Shown: positions 8,370 through 61,038 of the stretch, in pieces
How positions within the stretch are numbered: the first letter of the stretch is position 1
How the letters are laid out: each line of letters opens with the position of its first letter
DNA from: Phoenix dactylifera
Taxonomy: Eukaryota; Streptophyta; Magnoliopsida; Arecales; Arecaceae
NCBI RefSeq assembly: GCF_009389715.1
Contig: NC_052399.1
Span: 4,604,938-4,668,937 of the forward strand
Reading direction: 5' to 3'
Length of the DNA: 64,000 nucleotides
Translations under genes and position numbers: made by a program
Notes under the pieces: model-generated
Databases searched by the model: none
Told to the model about the DNA's origin: nothing
Seen by the model: only the letters and a program-made list of their open reading frames with translations

Positions 8370-8732
8370 TCATCATCTACATTCTGCAAATTATATTTTG
8401 GTCCTCTAAATTTCACAAATATTTTTAAATGAGCCTTATAGCTTAAAAATTTCTCATTAGGTCTCTTAATTTTTAAATATAATTTAATATAGTATTTTCG
8501 GTCCATTTCTGGGAATGCCTTCCGGAAACCTTTTATTCGGACCCATATGCCCCCCTTAATTTGGAGGGTTAAAAGTATAATTTACTCTCATCTCTTTCAA
8601 GAAAGAAATCGGGTAATAAAAAGCGGAAACTAGGGTTACAATCTCGGACCATCAAAGGGGAAGGAAAGCCACAGCCAAGCATGCACCCTGATGAAATCAC
8701 CATACAGCCCTACATCTTTAGAGAACAATTAA
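8370..8732 (+). repeat. Left inverted arm of the 2.3-kb element
   Basis: It is the reverse complement of 10290-10673 with scattered mismatches and small indels. The outer edge is approximate, because similarity fades around TCATCTACATTCTG. Confidence 0.75.
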
Positions 8733-10289: not shown

Positions 10290-10673
10290 TCGCTATTATT
10301 CTCTAAAGATATAGGGCTGTACAGTGATTTCATCGGGGTGCATGCTTGGTTGTGGCTTTCTTTTTCCTTTGATGCTCCGAGATTGTAACCCTAGCTTTTG
10401 CTTTTTGTTACTTTAATTAAAATGAATTAGGCACCCTATGCCCGACTTTTTTCTTGAAAAAGACAAGGGTAATTATACTTTTAACCCTCCAAATTAAGGA
10501 GGGTGTATGGGCCCGAATGAAAGGTTTCCAGGCATAAATTGGCTAAAAATACTATATTAAATTATATTTAAAAATTGAGGAACCTAATTAGAATTTTTTA
10601 AACTATAAGGATTATTTAAAAATATTTGTGAGATCTAGAGGACCACAATATAATCTACGGAATGTGGACGACC
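10290..10673 (-). repeat. Right inverted arm of the 2.3-kb element
   Basis: It pairs with 8370-8732 over its whole length. The inner boundary is at about 10290, where the TCTCTAAAGATATAGGGCTG block ends. Confidence 0.75.
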
Positions 10674-11234: not shown

Positions 11235-11472
11235 TATTAGCTCATCCATCATGTATCTGAACAGCACGGTTACAACGTTTCAAACTGAAACGTTTCAACA
11301 GTTAAAACGGATTCTGGTGCTGTAACTGTTAGCTCAATAGAATCCGTTGGGAAACCATCTCACTGTCTTACGCTCTATATAAACCCATGTAACTCAATGA
11401 TTCGGGTATGGAAAAAGATATAGAAATCATTACTATCATTCTCTCTCAGTCTTCTCTATACAATCTTCTTCA
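11235..11472 (+). repeat. Left LTR of the copia element
   Basis: It starts TATTAGCTCATCC and ends TCTTCTTCA. A TATA-like CTATATAAACCC sits in its second half and probably drives transcription. It is nearly identical to the right LTR. Confidence 0.95.
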
Positions 11473-11484
11473 TGGTATCAGAGC
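11473..11484 (+). promoter_or_regulatory. Primer-binding site of the copia element
   Basis: TGGTATCAGAGC directly follows the left LTR and matches the 3' end of initiator methionine tRNA, the usual primer for plant copia elements. Confidence 0.9.
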
Positions 11485-11545
11485 CAAAGATCCTGTGAGC
11501 TCTCTCTATTGTTCCCATATCAGAATGGAAGATATCTAACAACTG

Positions 11546-14500
11546 ATGTCAGAGAAATCAATCAATCTTGAAGTTCATCTACCCATGATCTCTCCCGGGT
11601 CTGTGCATGCCACAGGAGCTGCTGAAGACTTCCAATCTCAGGATGGTCAAGTTATCCCTCCGAAGCTCAAATTCTTACTTAATCAGATACGATCCTTAGT
11701 ACCAAATCAGCTTACCTCTGACAACTATCTCACATGGAGATCTCAAGTCATCAGGATCTTCAGAGCCAGTGGTTACTATGGCTTCCTCGATGGCTCATCC
11801 ACACCCACCAGAACATCTGGTACCTTAGAGTCAACAGTATCCGAAACATGGTTCTTCACGGATCAATTTCTTGCCACAGCACTGAACTCCATCATTTCCT
11901 CCTCTGTTCTCCCATATGTAATTAATCTAGAGCATTGCTATCAAATCTGGGCAGCTTTGGATTGCAGATTAAACTCTGCTACTAGAACCCACATCATCCA
12001 GCTCAAAAATGAGCTGCATAATATCAAGAAAAGAGATCTATCAATGTCTCAATACCTTGACGAAATTAGATCCAAAGTTGATGCATTAACTGCTGCAGGG
12101 TCTCAGATTGATTCAGAGGATGCTGTCCTCTACGTTCTCAATGGGTTGCCACCTACGTATGACTCATTTGCAACTGCTATTCGGACTCGATCTTCCTCAA
12201 TCTCCCTGGATGAACTCTATGCACTTCTCTGTAGTGAAGAAATTATTCTATCCACTAGGGACAGAGAACAACCATCTCCAGATTCCACATTTGCTCTAAC
12301 TGCTGTTCAAGGACGAGGTCGCAGTGGCAGATTCTTCTCAACATTCAGAGGTGGCGGTCGAACTAGATCATTTCCCAGAACTGGTGGCTGGACCTCTCCA
12401 GGACGAGGCAACAGTGGCCGGTCCATCATCGAATGTCAGATTTGTGGAAAGCGTGGACACTCTGCTATACATTGTTGGTATCGCTTAGATACCAATTACA
12501 CCAGGAAAACTACATCATCTGGTCATCAGGCACTCTTCACTGCTCCGTTCCCAGCAGCCCCTTCCTCTGGCAATTGGATTCTCGATAGTGGAGCCACTAC
12601 TCACTTAACAGCAGATGCTTCACAAATCAACCATCTAGCACCCTTTCATGGCTCGAAGCAGGTCTCAATTGGGAATGGAGAATCACTTCCCATTCATCAC
12701 TCCGGCACTGGTATTCTTCCCACCCCATCTCACATCTTCCATCTTTCTCAAATTCTTCATGTTCCTGCCATCTCCCACAATTTACTGTCAGTTCATAAAC
12801 TTGCTGTGGATAACAATTGTCTTCTTATTTTTGATTCCACTGGTTGCATTATCAAGGACAAACACACCAACCAGACACTCTTCCAAGGACGATGCACTGA
12901 GGGACTGTATCCGATCCCATTCACCTTTGCTCAGCAGTCTTCTCAGCCTTCAGTTTCATCCAAAGCACTTCTGTCCACTCCTTCCATCAATCTCTGGCAT
13001 TCTCGTCTGGGGCACCCGGCTGACTCCGTCATCTCTCATATTGCCAAACACTCTTCCGTTCAAAGCTCCAGGAATCCAGCTGCTGTGTGTTCCACCTGCT
13101 GTATGGCCAAGAGTCACAAGCTCTCGTTTCACTCCGTGGGCATCCTCTCCAAAAATCCTTTGGAACTTATTCACTCCGATGTATGGGGACCTTGTTCCAT
13201 TCCTTCTGTCACTGGGTTCCGTTATTACGTTTTATTCTTAGATGATTTTTCCCGCTTCAGCTGGGTCTATCCTATGTTCTCTAAATCAGATGTATTCCAT
13301 CACTTTGTACATTTTAAAAATCTGGTTGAGAAACAATTTTCTACCTCTATTAAGATCTTCCGGTCTGATGGTGGTGGTGAGTTTAATAACCACAACTTTC
13401 ACACATTGTGCTCCTCTTCTGGCATTATTCATCAATTTTCCTCTCCTCACACCCCTGAGCAGAATGGCTCTGCTGAGAGGAAACATCGCCATATTTCTGA
13501 AGTGGTCCGCAGTCTTCTTATCCAATCTTCAGTCCCTGCCAAATTCTGGACAGATGCTCTGCTCACAGCGGTTTATCTCATCAACCGTCTTCCATCCCCA
13601 TTACTTCATCATAAGTCTCCTTTCGAAATCCTGTATCATAAGATTCCTGACTATAGCATTCTTAAAACCTTCGGCTGCCGTTGTTTTCCCTGGCTTCGGC
13701 CCTATGCACGCACCAAACTCTCTCCCAGATCCATTCCATGCATTTTTCTTGGCTATTCCACTCGCCATAAAGCATACAGATGTTATTCTCCTACAACGGG
13801 CAGAATGTTTATCTCTCGCCATGTTAGGTTTGATGAGACCCACTTCCCATTTTCCCAGCAAGCTACCACTTCTCCTTCTTCCACTGTCCCACTACCTTTC
13901 ACTCTTCTTGTTCCTGCATCTTTGTTATCTTCATCAAACATTCAGTCATCTCCTTCTACTACTTCACCCATTGTCTTACCACCACCCACCTCTTTCAGTT
14001 CTTCATCATCACTCTCCGCGTCCTCTTCTCTTACACCAACCTCTGTCACATCCTCTCCCTCTCTTCCTGGTTCTATTCCTCCCACAAAGCATGCTTCAAC
14101 ACACCACATGATTACAAGATCCCAAACAGGCTCTCTTAAACCCAAACAGATACTCTCCTTGCTCAGTCATTCCACTGATTCAGAACCTACGTGCTTCACT
14201 ATGGCTCATACCAACCCTCAGTGGCGCTCAGCTATGTCCGAAGAGTTCAATGCTCTTCTTGAGCAGGGGACTTGGGAATTGGTTCCTAGGCCTTCGAACC
14301 AACAAGTTCTGGGCTGCAAATGGACATTTAAAATCAAACGTCACTCCGATGGTTCCATTGCTCGCTATAAAGCCAGGCTTGTTGCTCAAGGTTTTCATCA
14401 GCAGTATGGCATTGACTATTTTGAAACATTTAGTCCAGTGGCCAAGTTCCAAACTATTAGGGTTCTCATTGCCATGGCCACTACACTCTCCTGGACCATT

Positions 14501-15712
14501 CGACAAATTGATGTGTCTAATGCCTTTTTACATGGGAAACTAGATGAGACTGTATTCATGGAACAACCAAAAGGATTTCTTGATCCTCTCTACAGTAATC
14601 ATGTTTGCAAATTGAAGAAAGCTCTCTACGGGCTCAAACAAGCTCCCAGGCAGTGGTTTGCTACCTTCACATCCTCCCTGGTTCAGCTTGGGTTCACAAT
14701 CAGCACAGCTGATCCTTCGCTTCTCTTATTTCATCAAAATTCCATCTCTGTCTATGTTCTCGTATATGTCGATGACATTCTTATAACAGAAAATAGCAGT
14801 ACTGCAATTACAAAGCTTATCCTTCAACTAAGCAATCAATTCAAGATTAAAGATCTTGGAGTTCTGTCCTACTTCCTGGGGATTCAAGCTCTCTACTCAA
14901 ATGCTGGAGTTGCTCTCAATCAGTCCAAATATGCTCAGTCTCTTCTGCAGAAGGCTGGGCTATCAGAGTGCAAACCTGTGTCTGCTCCTTTATCAACCAA
15001 GCAACACTCTTCGGTGAACTCTGCCCCATTCTCTAACCCAGAGCTCTTCCGCAGCTTGGCCGGTTCACTTCAATATCTCACTATCACTAGGCCAGATATT
15101 ACCTTTGCCGTCAACTACATCTGCCAGTTCATGCATTGCCCTCTTGAGGTTCATTATCAAATGCTCAAACGGATCCTCCGTTATATCAAGGGGTCAGTAG
15201 ATCACTCACTTCATTACACGCCCGGCTCATTCGATCTCTCTGCATTCAGCGACTCTGATTGGGCAGGGGACTCATCTGATCGGCGGTCCACCACTGGTTA
15301 TTGCATATTCCTTGGATCAAATCTCATCTCATGGATCGCTAAGAAACAACCCACTGTTGCACGGTCCTCTACTGAAGCTGAATACCGGGCTTTGGCAATC
15401 ACCACATCCGAAATCATCTGGCTCCGACGTCTTCTTCATGAGCTGCAACATCCGGCCACTACATCCACAGAACTGTTTTGTGACAACATCTCCGCTTTAT
15501 CTCAAGCTACGAATCCCGTCTTCCATGCTCGCACGAAGCATATTGAGGTTGACTACCACTTTGTGAGGGAAAAAGTTCAGTCCAAGGAAATTCGTCTTGC
15601 TCATATCTCCACTGAGGACCAACCGGCAGACATCCTTACCAAAGCTCTTCCTGTTCAGCGGCATCTTCGCCTCTGTACCAAGCTTCGAGTTCTACCCCCG
15701 AACTCAGCTTGA
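11546..15712 (+). CDS. Copia gag-pol polyprotein
   Basis: This open frame of 1388 codons carries the copia order of domains. They are gag (about 1-290), a CCHC zinc knuckle CQICGKRGHSAIHCW (about 297-311), an aspartic protease with DSGATTHLT (about 345), a pre-integrase block with LWHSRLGHP (about 482), the integrase core (from about 541), reverse transcriptase with YVDDILI (about 1073), and RNase H with DSDWAGD (about 1235). Integrase before reverse transcriptase defines copia, not gypsy. The length is typical for the family. It ends within the purine tract before the right LTR. Confidence 0.95.
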   Translation: MSEKSINLEVHLPMISPGSVHATGAAEDFQSQDGQVIPPKLKFLLNQIRSLVPNQLTSDNYLTWRSQVIRIFRASGYYGFLDGSSTPTRTSGTLESTVSETWFFTDQFLATALNSIISSSVLPYVINLEHCYQIWAALDCRLNSATRTHIIQLKNELHNIKKRDLSMSQYLDEIRSKVDALTAAGSQIDSEDAVLYVLNGLPPTYDSFATAIRTRSSSISLDELYALLCSEEIILSTRDREQPSPDSTFALTAVQGRGRSGRFFSTFRGGGRTRSFPRTGGWTSPGRGNSGRSIIECQICGKRGHSAIHCWYRLDTNYTRKTTSSGHQALFTAPFPAAPSSGNWILDSGATTHLTADASQINHLAPFHGSKQVSIGNGESLPIHHSGTGILPTPSHIFHLSQILHVPAISHNLLSVHKLAVDNNCLLIFDSTGCIIKDKHTNQTLFQGRCTEGLYPIPFTFAQQSSQPSVSSKALLSTPSINLWHSRLGHPADSVISHIAKHSSVQSSRNPAAVCSTCCMAKSHKLSFHSVGILSKNPLELIHSDVWGPCSIPSVTGFRYYVLFLDDFSRFSWVYPMFSKSDVFHHFVHFKNLVEKQFSTSIKIFRSDGGGEFNNHNFHTLCSSSGIIHQFSSPHTPEQNGSAERKHRHISEVVRSLLIQSSVPAKFWTDALLTAVYLINRLPSPLLHHKSPFEILYHKIPDYSILKTFGCRCFPWLRPYARTKLSPRSIPCIFLGYSTRHKAYRCYSPTTGRMFISRHVRFDETHFPFSQQATTSPSSTVPLPFTLLVPASLLSSSNIQSSPSTTSPIVLPPPTSFSSSSSLSASSSLTPTSVTSSPSLPGSIPPTKHASTHHMITRSQTGSLKPKQILSLLSHSTDSEPTCFTMAHTNPQWRSAMSEEFNALLEQGTWELVPRPSNQQVLGCKWTFKIKRHSDGSIARYKARLVAQGFHQQYGIDYFETFSPVAKFQTIRVLIAMATTLSWTIRQIDVSNAFLHGKLDETVFMEQPKGFLDPLYSNHVCKLKKALYGLKQAPRQWFATFTSSLVQLGFTISTADPSLLLFHQNSISVYVLVYVDDILITENSSTAITKLILQLSNQFKIKDLGVLSYFLGIQALYSNAGVALNQSKYAQSLLQKAGLSECKPVSAPLSTKQHSSVNSAPFSNPELFRSLAGSLQYLTITRPDITFAVNYICQFMHCPLEVHYQMLKRILRYIKGSVDHSLHYTPGSFDLSAFSDSDWAGDSSDRRSTTGYCIFLGSNLISWIAKKQPTVARSSTEAEYRALAITTSEIIWLRRLLHELQHPATTSTELFCDNISALSQATNPVFHARTKHIEVDYHFVREKVQSKEIRLAHISTEDQPADILTKALPVQRHLRLCTKLRVLPPNSA

Positions 15713-15719
15713 GGGGGGA

Positions 15720-15956
15720 TATTAGCTCATCCATCATGTATCTGAACAGCACGGTTACAACGTTTCAAACTGAAACGTTTCAACAGTTAAAACGGATTCT
15801 GGTGCTGTAACTGTTAGCTCAACAGAATCCGTTGGGAACCATCTCACTGTCTTACGCTCTATATAAACCCATGTAACTCAATGATTCGGGTATGGAAAAA
15901 GATATAGAAATCATTACTATCATTCTCTCTCAGTCTTCTCTATACAATCTTCTTCA
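15720..15956 (+). repeat. Right LTR of the copia element
   Basis: It follows the purine tract GAGGGGGGA and matches the left LTR almost exactly. The next five bases are CCACT, the target duplication. Confidence 0.95.
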
Positions 15957-15961
15957 CCACT

Positions 15962-17804
15962 GGCTTTCTCATCTGCGAAAACTAGTGACGAAACCCAATC
16001 AGTGGGAAGGCGACATCATCTTATCCAACTTGCAGAGCAGCCGGCATCAATTGCTACAAGGATACAGAAGATAACGGCAACAACATCTGATGTAAACCCA
16101 CTCGTCATGGTCATACGAGGAGATGTAACTGCTAACGCCGGATGGATGCATGATGCCGACCGGTACGTGCTCCAGCGGTTGGCACGCTATCCCCATCCAG
16201 TCGATCAGATGGAGAAGGAAGCATTTGCAGTCATATGAGAACCGCAGCGAGTCTTACACTCAAAAAGGGAACTGCGAGTTGCGAGCAGACCTTGATTGGT
16301 GGTGGACAACGCTCGAGAGGTCCACCAAAGATCGATTCGCAGCCTGGAAGCAGATGACGTGTTAAAAGTTTTGCCCTTCAATTGCTGTGCCCTGGCCTAT
16401 TCTGACCTAATGACAACTTCGGCCACTCCACAAAAGATAATCTCCTAGTCCAACTTTGCGTGGCTGACAAAAGAGACGCTCGCCAACTTGCAAAATGGAA
16501 GGAAGCCAGATTCCAGTCTAGTTTGGAGAGCTATTATTCCCTGCAATGATCGAGCACTACCGTCTGGAAAACTTATCCACTTTTTTCCAAAAAGGAATTT
16601 TTCTTTTCTTTCTTTTTTTATAAAAAACAAGGAAGCCAAAACGAGAGGGAATTTAACCAAGATAGCAGACATCTTGCTTCCCAGGTATCTTTGGTAAAGA
16701 TATAGTTCGTTCGACCCCTCATCCATCTTCATTCGCTCATCAAAATTTAGTCGCATGGGTCTCGTTTCCATGTTTATGCGGGATAATCATAGAACTAATT
16801 GCACCACAATTATAAGGGCGCGATGTGTAGATATAAAATGCCATGACATCCAGCAAATCTGAGATCCGTGTTAACCAGCCAGTTTACTCCAAAAGCTTAA
16901 GCTAACAAGGAATAGATCACCAATGTATATATAAGAGGATGACCACCATTAATTCACAAGAATAAATAATCATGCTGAGAAAGCAGACATTAATATGTAC
17001 CAAGTGCCAATAAATTCTGAAAAGAAAAATCAGTAAAAATACACTGGAAGGAAATCCTTTTCTTCTTCGTAAAATATCAGCCAGTTGGAGGCCCCACATA
17101 GAAGGAATAAGCAGGTGAAAAGAGATCTTAAGTATGCATACATGCATCATGGTCATGGTTGGCAGATAGATTCCCTGGTAAAGGAATTTTACAAAGAATC
17201 GGTCGGTTAATCGGGTGAGCTGGTCTCATCATGCACCATACCACCAGCCATTTGTGTTTGATGTCTGGATGCCGTTTCTGCGCAATTCGTGGACAAGGGA
17301 GCCATCTTTTTGCACAGGAATAAACAAATGATAGTTAAAGCAGAATCAATTCCTAGGTTGGAAATGCAAAAGCTACGTAGCCTCTGAGCTTAATCAATTA
17401 ACTGAAACGCATAACGTACAACAATCATGATAGAGTTACACGTCTAGAGAATTCAGCAGGTCAGCCTGAAAATAAATGAAGGCCAAGCAGTAGTAGCTTG
17501 GTTTCACCTACAACACCCAGCATCAAGGATATCCATAGTTCAAACAAGTATAACAACCCTGATGAATGAACTATACAAGCTTAAAAGGCTGGGAACAGTG
17601 ACGATGCAGATTATAATACAACCAGAAAGAAGTCACCTTATGTTAATATTCAAGAGTAGATTCCTCTTTGGTACATATCAGAGATGAAATATACAACCGG
17701 CCGGCCAGAAGGGCTAGCAGTTATGCCACCACAATACAAGATTTGTGTCTCATTTCACAGAGTGCTACGTACTCTTAGTTGCCAGAATCAGGTGAAGGTG
17801 CAGT
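15962..17804. other. Intergenic, no gene seen
   Basis: Both strands lack any recognisable domain. Several short open frames have no family signature. The end near 17740-17800 may hold the last codons of an interrupted minus-strand frame (see 17786-19548). Confidence 0.5.
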
Positions 17805-17874
17805 CACTACAGAAAAAGTCGGTTTGACCGACGCTTTTTTGCCGACGCTTGTAAGAATCAGGTGAAGGTACAGT
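17805..17874 (+). repeat. Duplicated CACTA 5' end with its flank
   Basis: About 70 bp, running from the flanking AGAATCAGGTGAAGGT through CACTACAGAAAAAGTCGGTT, occurs twice head-to-tail, so two CACTA termini are present (17805 and 17875). The second copy leads into the full element. Confidence 0.8.
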
Positions 17875-18380
17875 CACTACAGAAAAAGTCGGTTTTATCG
17901 ACCCTTTTTTGCCGACGCTTTTTACAAGCGTCGGCAATTTTCGGTCTATCATCTAAATGTGGCGACGCTTGTAAAAAGCGTCGGCAAAAAACGACGCTAA
18001 TTCATGCTGGTGTAATCGCAGGCCTAAAACGACGCTAAAAAGCGTCGTCAATCCCTTTTCAGAAGACCTCTTTCCCATGGGGCTCCTTTTCCTTGCCATG
18101 ACCTTCTCCCCCCTCTCCCCCCTCTCCACCCACCCCTTGAAAAACTACTCTCCATCGCCTCTTCTCCCCTCCACGGGCCGCTCAAAACCCCTCCCCCTCG
18201 CCGCCCTCCCGCTCCAGCCACGAGAAAGCCAGCTCCGCCCCGGCTCGGTCGCCGGATCCGGCAGCGGAAGCAGGGAGGGGAGGTGCGGAGGGTCTGGTGG
18301 CCGGATCCGGTGGTATTGGTTGCGGATCTGGCGGCGGACTCCTCTCGTTTGGTTGCGCATCTTTGTTCGGGTTCTTGTTG

Positions 18381-18794
18381 ATGGGGAACTGCTGGAGCGC
18401 GAGGATCAAGGCGGAGAGCCCCTGCCACAGGTCAGCTTCAGGTATGATGATGAACTGGTGAGGCTTTTTGGTTTTCGAGGCCTCTTGATGCTTGGCTATG
18501 GTTTTTTGGATGACTTTATCCATTTTTGGGGGGTCTTTAAGTTGAGATTGTTGCGCTTTGATCTGTTTAGAGAGTTATACTTCAATTTAAAAAGATTTGT
18601 TGCTTGCTATCAGCCAGCTAGTTTAATTAGAAAGTTTCATGATCATTTATTTTGCCTGCGTGCTTGAGTTGTTTGGGTCTTTCGATTTTCTTGGGCTATA
18701 GATTTGGGCAGTGATCTTGCGAAAGGTTGCTCTGACTTCTCGTAGCGAGGATGAGATCTTGCAATCTTCCAAGCTGAGGTGCTTCACCTTCAGT
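18381..18794 (+). pseudogene. Captured 5' end of an RLCK-VII (PBL/APK1-like) protein kinase gene
   Basis: 18381-18441 encodes MGNCWSARIKAESPCHRSAS, the acylated N-terminus typical of PBL/APK1/NAK kinases (Gly2 for myristoylation, Cys4 for palmitoylation). A GT donor follows at 18442. After an intron-like stretch, 18736-18794 encodes EDEILQSSKLRCFTFS, the segment just before the kinase domain in this family (compare EGEILQSSNLKSF). The kinase domain itself is absent. The upstream GC-rich part (18060-18380) is probably the captured 5' leader. It is a gene fragment with no kinase activity. Confidence 0.8.
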
Positions 18795-19130
18795 TCCACC
18801 ATCCGGCCATCCGGCCCCCAGGGCCTCATGTTCCCCATGATCGAGTCCCCCGGCGCCACCGAGCTCGCCGTTCTGCTGTTTCCCGCCGCGCGGCATCCGC
18901 GGGTCCGCCGACACAGTGGTGCGCGCCTCCGCCTACGGCATCGACGATGGCTACCTGGCGCGGGTTGACGAGGAGCTGCTGGTGATGTGCCAGGTGGAGA
19001 CGGCGGCGGGGCTGGCGGAGATCGAGGCAATCGCCGGCGTCGAGGGGGTCGACGTGGTGCAGATGGATCTGAGCGCGAGCATGGGGCATCTGTGGGATCT
19101 GAGGGATGCGATGAAGGAGGCGGAGAGGAA
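18795..19130 (+). pseudogene. Captured fragment of an HpcH/HpaI-family aldolase gene
   Basis: Directly after the kinase piece the sequence encodes GPQGLMFPMIESPGATELAV. In a shifted frame it continues with VRASAYGIDDGYLARVDEEL, LLVMCQVETAAGLAEIEAIA and VVQMDLSASMGHLWD. These are consecutive blocks of the plant HpcH/HpaI aldolase (2-keto-3-deoxy acid aldolase) family. At least one frameshift lies between the first and second block (around 18870-18885). A short in-frame loss has removed the GPL normally found before DLSASMG. Active-site parts outside this window of the protein are missing, so it cannot be a working enzyme. Confidence 0.8.
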
Positions 19131-21597
19131 ATTGGGAGGAATCGAGGCTCTGATTCAAAATATTTTTTAAAATATTTTTTTTAAAAAAATATTTATAACG
19201 ACGCTTTAAAGCGTCGGCGAAAACTCAAAACTGGTTTGGGCTTTCCTGACACTTTAAAGCGTCGGCAAATATCGTTTTTGCTGACGCTTTTATTAGCGTA
19301 GGGAAATCCCTGTTTTTACCGACGCTTTCCCTTAGCGTCGGCAAAAACCGGACCCACACCCATCTGCCCGACGTCTGACCCACGCTTTGGGATGCGTGGG
19401 CTGGAAATTCGCCGACGCTTAAAAGCGTCGGTAGAGACCAAAAAAACCGTCGGGAGATATCATTTCTTTTGTAGTGAGTAGAGGGAGTGGAAGTGGAAGA
19501 TAATGCACCTGCTCCATAATCTTCATCGAATCTTGAACTCAAACCCACGTTCTAAGCACTTCCTTACTAAAAATGTTATCCTAGGTAGAAAATTCTGGTT
19601 GCTAAGGTACTGTTTAACACAGAGAAATTACAATAAGAAAAAACACTACTTTCCGATCCTTAAGAAAAAAGAATGAAATGGTAGCCTAGTGCACGAGGCT
19701 CCCGCCACTACAGGATCTATGGAGGGTCAAATGTACACAACCTTAACCCTACATATGGAGAGGCTGTTTCCGTGGTTCAAATCAGCGACACCCACTTACA
19801 AAGAATGCAATTGATAATATGATACATTAGCTAAGAGCAGACAAGACCACAAAATCTTGCTTCCACATTTTCTTAGAGCATTAAACAAGATGATACATCA
19901 CTAACTACGAGGTGAAGGAGGAAAACTTGTATGAAGAAAACGTGCTGCCTTTTAGCATCTTCCAGGAGCATTTTTGTCTATTATTTACTGCTTGTAACAG
20001 AAGAAGGCTTCGATATGGATGAGAAAAGATTCACTACCAAAGCTGTGGAATTGGGATTATGCCTTTTCCATGATCACAAAATTACACCAAGAACAAGGTA
20101 GCTTGCTTCAGCAAAGCAATACAAATAGGGCAAAAAATTTCATCTACGTGATGTCCCTACATGGCCAAATAGAATTGTTGATCAAGTATGTTTAATTCCC
20201 TATTATCACTGATATACGAATCAGCCTCAGTCAATTATATAAGCATATCTTGATAATGTCTTGAAAGTTACCTGCAAAGGAAAAGAAATATGCAATACCT
20301 GAAGATAAGATTTCTTGTTATAGCCGACAAGATACGGATCAACAATTTCCACCAGCTGGGTCAATGAATCAAGGCTGTTTTCTAGATAGGATATCATCTG
20401 AAGAAAATAATTCTCTTTCAGCCATAATGTGACATGGCATAAATTCGATTGTACTTCATATCTACACTTCCATGCAGTAAAAGCTGGACTAATGGAGCTC
20501 AGATAATCAAGGAACAGTACACACAAGCAGATATTTCCATAAACTTAACCTGAATATTTTCTTGTAACTATATGAGAGGCAAGCTTTTTATGGTAGAAAG
20601 AAAATTATACAGTTGCGTAGCAAACGAGAAGGTAAGCTTACTGCCTGATTTAGAGAATCCAGAGAATGATTTCTCATATAATTCTGGGATAAGTATTTCA
20701 GTTCTTTACTTTTCATACCCTATTTAATGTTCATTTGCTTCATGTAGAACGTGCTGGTTAAGAGATATCTTCAAGAAAAGTTGAAGGACGAGTTCTTGCC
20801 AGCTACAATCTTCTTCGTAGGGTAATGCAACTGCTTCAGAATCTTCCGAGAATCTAGGACCCGCACCAACTTCCTAAGTGCTAACTTACCAAAAGTGATT
20901 CTAAAGTATCCACTTTCCTGCAATTGCACCCACTCCCGCTCCTGTAAATGCATCCGATTCTAGCAACGAAGACCATGTTATCTGGTCCTACATGCAAAAA
21001 AGAAAAAAAATTCATAATAATCACCAAATATTATACTTGTATTCAAAATCCTGTAAAAAGAAAACATGAATTTGAAAACCATTGCCAGAATCCAACTCAT
21101 CACCAGAACATCCAGAAGTACATACATAACCACAATATATAGACCAAATCAATGTTTCAAGTAATGGTGGCACAACAATATCCCAATGTATAAAATAGAT
21201 CCATGTTCAAAGGTATTGAGGATTTCCCACACTTCAACTCCTAGTAAGCTAGCTCCAACTTATGCAATTTATTGACAAATTCTGCAATAATCTTCAATTT
21301 TTCATTAGAAGATTCAATACCAAGTCTATATGGCAAAAGAACTAGAAACTCAAGCTTTCTGAGTTTCTAGTGATTTCAAATAATACTCTGCTTTCATCCA
21401 ATTACTTCACAAGTTATAAAATTCTCAGCTTGTATTCGTCGAGATGTTTTATCCACTTCAATATTTATCTTTAATTTCACCTTTTGGTCTGTATGACTAA
21501 TTTTCAAAGTTCTCCTGAACTCCCAAACTAGTTTCAATATGCTAGCAACAGTTCATTGGCTGGTAATGCAAGAAAACAATCAACACAAACACTTACA

Positions 21598-22875: not shown

Positions 22876-25032
22876 TGTAAAGATCCGCCTAGGATTGGGC
22901 CGGCCTCTGAATAAGGCGGCCCAATACAAAGAAAGAAAGGGGGGAGGGAGTATCCCGATCGGAATAGCCTCCCTCCCCTGTTTCAAATTTCTCCCCCTCC
23001 CGAATCCATCGGAGGGGAAGTTAGAGGGTGATTTAATCCTCCCATATCGGGCGAGGAACGCCTCCCCCCTCCTTCTAGGGCATCAACCGAGGGTCCTTCC
23101 ACAAAAAAAAAAAAAAAGAAGAAAGGGATTGGGTTTTACCTTGCCGCGGAAGGGATCGGCCCATCGCTGTCGATCCGGTCGGGAGGACCTCGCCGGAGGC
23201 AAGGTGAGCATCTTCTTCTTCTCCTCCTTCTTCGTTTTTGGCCCTTGCTTCTTTGGGAATGAGGCCGGGAAGCCTCCGGAATGATGGAGAAGCCGAGCCG
23301 GTTCGGCCTTCTCCTCTTCCGTTCCGGCCGGCCGGCAGTCGTAGGGCGTGGCACGGCCAGCCGTCGCCGGGCGTGGCACCACCGGCACGCCACAGACCGA
23401 CGACCATGGAGCGTCGCCGGCCGTGGGCCACCTGCAGCCGAACCCTCTCCTCCCCTTTCCGACGGGAAGAAGGAAGAAGAGAGGAAGAGAGAGGGTCTTT
23501 CCCCTCTCTTTCTCTTATTAAATAACCCTTTTATTATATTATTTGTCTATTTGTTGTTTGGTTTCCTTTTTACTATTGGATCCGGGAAGATCATGGCCTT
23601 GAGGACTCTAGATAGTCTTGGGATGCTAGATTTTAGAGGACCCTTTAGAGGATTAAACAGGGGTCCTAGATCATCTTATATCTTTGACAAAATTTAATAA
23701 TGACTTGGTTCTGTAGGGGAACAATCTATTGGACGAGAGGACGCTGAGCAGAGTCCTGAGCATTCCGGTTCATAGATCACCGTGAGGGCGGGTGATTACT
23801 TGTCGGAGTTTTCAATAAGAGTAAGAATCCTTGTACGCCAATCCTACATGATATACATATTTTTGCACTATATATGTTTGATATGCTATGATCCAGACAA
23901 AGCAAAATAGTTTTATATTTAATTATATTTTGATCGTGTTGGCTTGTGGTTGGTAGTGTGATGGATGCTTGTATGTGTATAACTTATACCTGCATAATTG
24001 AATTTATGGATGTGGTGGTATGGACTAACCATGTTATAGTGATTGCCCTGTCACGGGCCGGAAACGTGATCATGGTTAGTCTAGGCCGGAAATAAAGTAA
24101 ATAAAAGGGATTGATGTGTGGATGTGAAATTGATTAAATGAACATTGACTTTGGGCCGTCTCGTTATTATGGGTTTGCCCGTCACAGGCTCTAAGTGTGA
24201 CACTATTGGTTTGCCCGTCACAGGCTCTAAGTGTGACAATGTTGGTTTGCCCGTCACAGGCTCTAAGTGTGACACTATTGGTTGCCCGTCACAGGCTCTA
24301 AGTGTGACAATGTTGGTTTGCCCGTCACAGGCTCTAAGTGTGACAATGTTGGTTTGCCCGTCACAGGCTCTAAGTGTGACACTATTGGTTTGCCCTGTCA
24401 CGGGCTGGAAACGTGACCGGGATTTGGCCCAAAGTCGGAAAGATAATTGATCCGGATCAAGTTAATATAGAATGGAAAGAAAAAGCTTTGAAAATATTAA
24501 TGAAGATTAATGAGCTGTCGTATGCTATATCATTCTTGCGTGGTTGGACTTTCATTGATATTTGACGTGCATACTTATATTGATTATTTGAGCCTTTTGA
24601 TAGTCGGTTTATGATTTCATGAAATGTGCATCGATTTATCGTGGCTTTCAAATTCATATTATTATTGTGTTGGTATGGATGTGTAGGGATTCTTACTGGG
24701 CTGTAAAGCTCACCCCCCTCTTCTTCTTTTTCTTTACCAGAGTTGCAGGATGCATAGATTTGGATGGGATGGGCGCAGAGTGCGAGTACCAGAGTTATTA
24801 GTTAGTTAGTTTGTTTATCCTTCTTTGATGTCGATGAACATTTGAAGACTTTGTAATTGAACCAATTTGTTTATTTGGACATGTTGGATTTGTCTATTTG
24901 AATTATTAAATTAGTTGTGGATTTATTGGAATTTTTGTTAATCATAGGCCTTGCATGATCTTTAGGGCACTGCTCTAGGGCTCATGCGGCCGGTCGCGTA
25001 CCGGACCCGGGTGCTGGGTTCGGGGCGTGACA
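22876..25032. mobile_element. Solo LTR of a Ty3/gypsy-type retrotransposon (2157 bp)
   Basis: The unit begins TGTAAAGATCC and ends GGGGCGTGACA. It is flanked on both sides by GAAAT (22871-22875 and 25033-25037). No internal region or second LTR is present, so it is what remains after recombination between two LTRs. On the minus strand it would start TGTCACGCCCC, common for gypsy LTRs, but orientation is not proven. GC-rich at one end, it holds a 36-bp tandem array. It sits in the LysM kinase relic. Confidence 0.85.
24172..24421. repeat. 36-bp tandem array inside the solo LTR
   Basis: The unit GGTTTGCCCGTCACAGGCTC plus TAAGTGTGACACTATT recurs at 24172, 24208, 24244, 24280, 24315 and 24351, with a diverged seventh from 24387. 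One unit lacks a base. Each unit contains GTCACA...TGTGAC, a short palindrome. A related single unit lies at about 24040-24075. Confidence 0.95.
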
Positions 25033-51501: not shown

Positions 51502-51740
51502 AAATATGCATGCTTTTGTGGTCTAAAACATCTTTCTGTTATGAAGTTGTTAGTGGTAATCTGTAGGAGCAGTCTATATCCTATTGTTGCATGGAGCATC
51601 ATCTTCTTTATAATACTGTCATAAATATGTATGCTTTTGTGGTCTAAAACATCTTTCTGTTATGAATATGTTTGTGGTATTCTGTAGGAGCAGTCTATAT
51701 CGTACTGTTGTATGGAGTATCATCTTCTTTATACTTATCA
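51502..51740 (+). repeat. 121-bp tandem duplication in the NUP205 relic
   Basis: AAATATGCATGCTTTTGTGG and the following 95 bases recur from 51623 with few changes. The duplication covers the 3' side of the first recognisable NUP205 exon. Confidence 0.9.
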
Positions 51741-60410: not shown

Positions 60411-60680
60411 CAACCTATGATAATGATAATGCAGTAGAAACATTTGATTGCTATTCGCTAACTATTTGGATAAGACCTGAAGTGTTGCAAAATGGTGAGA
60501 AACGGGTTGCTTTGCAAATGCTTATAGTTATCTTAGTATGTAGTCCACTGGGCAGAAAAAGATGACATATTTGTCAGTAAATGCAATTATTACCTTGTTA
60601 AATTTAATGTAAGAGCCATTGAAGTTTGCTATCTTTTGTTCTTGTTAGATATTTCTCCTCTTTTCTTCCTTTTTTTCCTC

Positions 60681-61038
60681 TTTAATGTTCAAGATTTGTT
60701 TTTCTGTATACCTCTGTGTCTGAAATGTTGAATTAACAAGTAAGAACAAAACCCTCCCACAAATTATAGATTTTGTCAAGGCAAACCAATCAATTTTTGA
60801 TCAAATTTTAAGACAGGATGTTGCAGTAGCTGTTGGGTTGACTTTAGAGCGGATTTTCCTGTTTAATGTTCAAGATTTGTTTTTTCTGTATACCTCTGAG
60901 TCTGTAAATGTTGAATTAACAAGTAAGAACGAAACTCTCCATTGAATTATAGATTTTGTCAAGGCACACCAATCAATTTTCGATCAACTTTTAAGACAGG
61001 ATGTTGCAGTAGCTGTCGGGTTTACTTTAGTGCGGATT
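60681..61038 (+). repeat. About 182-bp tandem duplication including a NUP205 exon
   Basis: The block from TTTAATGTTCAAGATTTG to GCGGATT occurs twice (about 60681-60855 and 60862-61038). Each copy has the ATTATAG acceptor followed by the DFVKA[N/H]QSIFDQ[I/L]LRQDV exon start (60770 and 60953). Only the second continues into INLAVSILSKV and a donor. Confidence 0.93.

Follow-up and report, generated by a model that had tools for sequence, protein, structure and literature searches.

The segment at positions 17875-19476 of the window (the whole 64-kb stretch of DNA that was analysed) is very probably a non-autonomous CACTA element which carries pieces of two host genes, one for an HpcH/HpaI aldolase and one, less firmly assigned, for a receptor-like cytoplasmic kinase (RLCK-VII). 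Its structure suggests a Pack-CACTA of the En/Spm type whose cargo would have been captured from elsewhere. In fact, CACTA-type terminal inverted repeats, a 3-bp target-site duplication and both direct and inverted subterminal repeats were found, together with host-gene fragments, namely a piece recognised by Pfam PF03328 and a weaker RLCK-VII 5' end. The one CACTA feature not found, in three interior readings compared with Pfam, is a transposase gene, which belongs to autonomous members only and whose absence does not disqualify a non-autonomous element. The coordinates are collected in Table 1.

Table 1. Features of the element and of its duplicated left end, in window coordinates
Feature	Position	Strand	Details
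Non-autonomous CACTA element, measured from its inner left end	17875-19476	+	1602 bp; begins CACTACA, finishes TGTAGTG; flanked by AGT; subterminal repeats
AGT target-site duplication, left	17872-17874		Another AGT precedes the duplicated outer end (17802-17804)
AGT target-site duplication, right	19477-19479
Tandem duplication, 70 bp	17779-17918		Copies 17779-17848 and 17849-17918; 64/70 bases identical
Left subterminal region	17875-18051	+	Seven CGACGC/GCGTCG motifs; long hairpin
Putative 5' leader, or region further upstream, of the captured kinase gene	18060-18380	+	Assigned from its place ahead of the ATG
Probable captured RLCK-VII exon 1	18381-18441	+	MGNCWSARIKAESPCHRSAS plus one base; GT donor at 18442
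Probable retained intron 1	18442-18701	+	GTATGA...CTATAG; splice sites by eye
Probable start of RLCK-VII exon 2	18702-18794	+	Runs to ...EILQSSKLRCFTFS; one frame break; stops short of the kinase domain
Junction stretch belonging to neither piece	18795-18812		18 bp; kinase match to the left, aldolase alignment to the right
Internal fragment captured from an HpcH/HpaI aldolase gene	18813-19137	+	Aligned over 18813-19092; frame break near 18879; 3-residue gap
Right subterminal region	19196-19476	+	Seven CGACGC/GCGTCG motifs; hairpins

The original prediction of a 1.6-kb element with CACTA termini and an AGT duplication was borne out, since CACTACA begins at 17875, TGTAGTG ends at 19476, all seven end bases pair and AGT lies on either side. 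When all CACTACA/TGTAGTG pairings in the window with a spacing above 200 and below 30000 bases were counted, the same three flanking bases were present in only two of nine, 17875-19476 and 17805-19476, a flank match that by itself has a chance of 1 in 64. The terminal inverted repeats are short and imperfect, with identities of 7/7, 9/10, 12/15 and 13/20 bases over increasing lengths, and the match between the five flanking bases (ACAGT on the left, AGTAG on the right) is limited to three. A duplication of 3 bp is given for CACTA elements in general in PMC8978399, while the elements annotated in one study have duplications of 5 nt (PMC8903248). The stretch 17700-19600 has 47 listed open frames; three interior readings of the element were taken to Pfam and no transposase family was found among them, which fits a non-autonomous element but gives no internal proof of its family. 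No Rfam family reached its gathering score and no tRNA was detected. In the rest of the 64-kb window no other copy of the element was found with the low-complexity filter on; with the filter off, 15 short matches appeared, every one of them to an AT-rich stretch at element positions 1277-1328.

The subterminal repeats that had been proposed stood up to a control in which each stretch was dinucleotide-shuffled 2000 times, the clustering at both ends being far above the shuffled values. The window has 25 copies of the motif CGACGC/GCGTCG, of which 17 fall within 17805-19476 and 15 within 17875-19476; the two ends of the element hold 14, or 16 when the duplicated end is included. The left 244 bp (17805-18048) contain nine, with a shuffle mean of 0.35 and a maximum of 4, and the right 281 bp contain seven (mean 0.27, maximum 3), while the single motif in the interior, which sits in the aldolase piece, is set against a mean of 0.37 and a maximum of 4. 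Moreover, all eight occurrences of GCCGACGC/GCGTCGGC in the window fall within 17805-19476, seven of them within 17875-19476. Both regions also fold well: in the left one, where 17905-17941 pairs with 17955-17991 at 92% complementarity, the fold z-score was -9.8, in the right one it was -8.4, and in either case none of 200 shuffles was equally stable. In literature text the En/Spm TNPA motif was matched in a single paper, on Klebsiella, and no likeness to the motif of this element is claimed.

Genes of the RLCK-VII type combine an MGxC leader, a phase-1 intron and the stretch EILxSSxLxxFTF ahead of the kinase domain. In the left part of the cargo, the ATG at 18381 opens MGNCWSARIKAESPCHRSAS and an AG acceptor leads into 18702. 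A 51-residue reading of this piece, with one frame break bridged, was compared with 177,635 PDB sequences, with an E limit of 10. The best match was BIK1, with an E of 0.051 for the whole sequence and 0.27 for the aligned stretch itself, which covers residues 1-58; the only other one was PBL2 (E 1.7, no stretch passing alone), and both are RLCK-VII proteins. The two short unbridged pieces gave no RLCK match in the PDB at E up to 10, the 106-residue frame of exon 1 matched no Pfam family, and the peptide strings of the kinase piece were not found in published literature text. The piece is therefore probably, rather than demonstrably, the 5' end of a BIK1/PBL-like RLCK-VII gene with its intron 1, because the match is weak, a frame break had to be bridged and the short pieces matched no RLCK. 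For the exon 1 and partial exon 2 foreseen by the original prediction, the leader motif, the splice sites and a match list restricted to BIK1 and PBL2 speak in favour, and an E of 0.051 keeps the identity short of proof; the boundary placed at 18794 is indeed where the similarity ends.

The assignment of the second piece to an HpcH/HpaI aldolase was confirmed. The frame 18841-19167 matches PF03328 with an E of 1.3e-9 and 38.1 bits, over profile positions 106-163 of 221 and above the gathering cut-off of 25 bits, and 20 distinct PDB sequences were found at E <= 0.1, the best being a 2,4-dihydroxyhept-2-ene-1,7-dioic acid aldolase (E 1.6e-12). In addition, a frame-aware alignment to the aldolase of a Deinococcus plasmid reached a score of 192 (window 18813-19092, residues 96-193 of 264), whereas the controls, two unrelated reading frames from that Deinococcus locus, scored 52 and 40. 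This alignment begins at 18813 instead of the 18795 first proposed, changes frame near 18879 and ends at 19092; judging from plant homologues, the piece presumably extends to about 19137. Just before DLSA, opposite the GPA stretch of the bacterial aldolase, the element is three residues short; the GPA stretch is part of the metal site in these enzymes. Altogether the piece retains 58 of the 221 Pfam positions, while the wider alignment gives 98 of 264 residues. By itself, the 24-residue 5' part of the aldolase piece did not find an aldolase, giving one chance match to an oxidoreductase (E 1.1). At the DNA level, three plasmid records were matched over 4-12% of the element each; in two the match falls in an annotated aldolase gene, and in the third nothing is annotated at that place. 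The aldolase relatives comprise one genome-contig locus, out of 320 pattern matches, and one plasmid record, the aligned protein coming from the plasmid only.

The two pieces have the same orientation, their junction lies within coding sequence on both sides, and neither subterminal motifs nor terminal repeats occur between them. A CACTA element would have taken up DNA of two unrelated host genes, moving by cut-and-paste with the transposase and the subterminal-repeat-binding protein presumably supplied by an autonomous relative elsewhere. The kept intron makes it likely that DNA, not RNA, was captured. As for the joining of the pieces, interrupted gap repair with template switching is favoured, at about an even chance, since only 18 bp are unassigned and the repeats of the ends do not recur between the two. 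A capture in one step would compete with this joining route only, and leaves the identity of the element as it is: the pieces would already have been adjacent in a rearranged host locus, to be enclosed by two nearby CACTA copies whose end deletions were complementary. Such a course agrees with the published model for Pack-CACTA elements of Arabidopsis, which in PMC13317346 and PMC8903248 invokes local hopping and aberrant excision, and also with the common orientation and the motif-free junction. Nevertheless, it presupposes that kinase and aldolase were already joined in the host, which no finding supports, and the junction is intra-coding on both sides; it is regarded as rather unlikely. The sequence alone does not decide between gap repair and aberrant excision.

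The left end was found to be duplicated in tandem, a feature absent from the original prediction. Each 70-bp copy consists of 26 bp of left flank ending in AGT, followed by the element's first 44 bp, and thus a second CACTA left end, likewise preceded by AGT, is present at 17805. The duplication is most simply explained as postdating the insertion, because the flank is repeated along with the element end; an event after insertion would have copied the left end together with its 26 bp of flank. From 6/70 or 4/67 differences and two alternative rates, an age of 2.4-7.0 million years was calculated, a rough hint given the few sites. That the duplicated end is instead a product of aberrant transposition, with the outer end at 17805 usable, is considered very improbable. 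If this were true, the end at 17805 and the right end would together mobilise the element plus 26 bp of flanking host DNA, and the locus would be a snapshot of a CACTA element that may gain flanking sequence one end at a time.

With regard to coding capacity, each captured piece contains one frame break; read from the kinase ATG, the spliced sequence meets a stop after 34 residues. The element as read would offer no route to a working kinase or aldolase, and the cargo is most likely now a pseudogene that yields no protein; should there be any activity, the most plausible would be as a source of small RNA, from the hairpins or from the cargo. There is only a slim chance that it is an expressed new gene, in which the kinase promoter, the N-myristoylation leader and the intron would drive a transcript into the aldolase and yield a fusion protein. 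One stop-to-stop frame (18702-18968) is indeed common to both pieces over the junction, the splice sites are plausible, and the cargo of Tgm-Express1 is spliced as exons according to PMC1947982. Against this, the 34-residue limit applies, the shared frame has no ATG before the aldolase part, the aldolase frame is lost near 18879 and much of the aldolase domain is missing. The 88-residue fused frame matched no Pfam family and gave seven PDB matches, the best with an E of 1.2. Whereas the structure of a two-gene chimera in a small CACTA element held, its description as a clear case of exon shuffling was overstated, because both pieces are frame-broken, the junction is intra-coding and the spliced reading is so short, with the kinase domain absent and the aldolase partial. 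Least credible of all is a reading in which only the CACTA ends are real and an unrelated pseudogene or GC-rich DNA was misread as two captured pieces, for, although the kinase match is weak and 18060-18380 is without an identified relative, the aldolase is backed by a strong match, and RLCK-VII proteins are all that the kinase reading finds.

CACTA elements with several gene pieces are already known (Tgm-Express1, maize Pack-CACTAs), and the element described here is one more instance. Tgm-Express1, as presented in PMC1947982, is a 5.7-kb soybean CACTA element located in a gene intron in the wp allele; it likewise contains exons together with introns from several unrelated host genes, but it has five gene fragments shown to be spliced into transcripts, whereas the present element is 1.6 kb long, has two and is known as a sequence. 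It also resembles the Pack-CACTA elements of Arabidopsis, maize and rice, non-autonomous elements with coding fragments which, in PMC8903248, were called from whole genomes and have clustered copies, while here a single element was found within a 64-kb window. With Tgmt*, a putatively autonomous soybean element, it shares the CACTA ends, the 3-bp duplication and inverted, stem-loop-forming subterminal motifs; according to PMC2613891, Tgmt* is however 20.5 kb long, encodes a transposase and has the subterminal motif TTGGCAG with AATCTTACAG, in place of CGACGC. In a full-text literature search, CACTA, aldolase and receptor-like cytoplasmic kinase occurred together in one paper, on a blackcurrant genome. 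The element adds to the cases in which a DNA transposon has copied pieces of host genes and joined them, and alone changes nothing known; its kept intron, motif-free junction and duplicated left end provide small, testable clues to the capture process.

The window resembles plant DNA, perhaps that of a monocot to judge by its gene sequences. It has a GC content of 30-51% in 2-kb steps, and its Pfam matches include a POT-family transporter, a Branch-family glycosyltransferase and a copia polyprotein; of ten more frames compared with Pfam, one gave a weak dehydrogenase match and nine were without a match. A full-length copia retrotransposon lies on the forward strand (11235-15956); its long terminal repeats (11235-11472 and 15720-15956) are 99.2% identical over 237 aligned bases, with CCACT flanks on both sides and a single open frame of 1390 residues that matches gag, integrase and reverse transcriptase; the element looks young. 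Long imperfect inverted repeats at 8373-8729 and 10295-10671, in three arm pairs that are 85, 88 and 92% complementary and with the innermost arms about 1.6 kb apart, resemble the ends of another DNA transposon; the 32-33 bases immediately outside them share no stretch of 5-12 bases. Finally, a minisatellite with a 36-bp unit was located at 24168-24406 (6.6 copies, 93% matches), as well as two tandem duplications, one at 60673-61038 with a 183-bp unit (2.0 copies, 91% matches) and the other at 51502-51733 with a 121-bp unit (1.9 copies, 91% matches).
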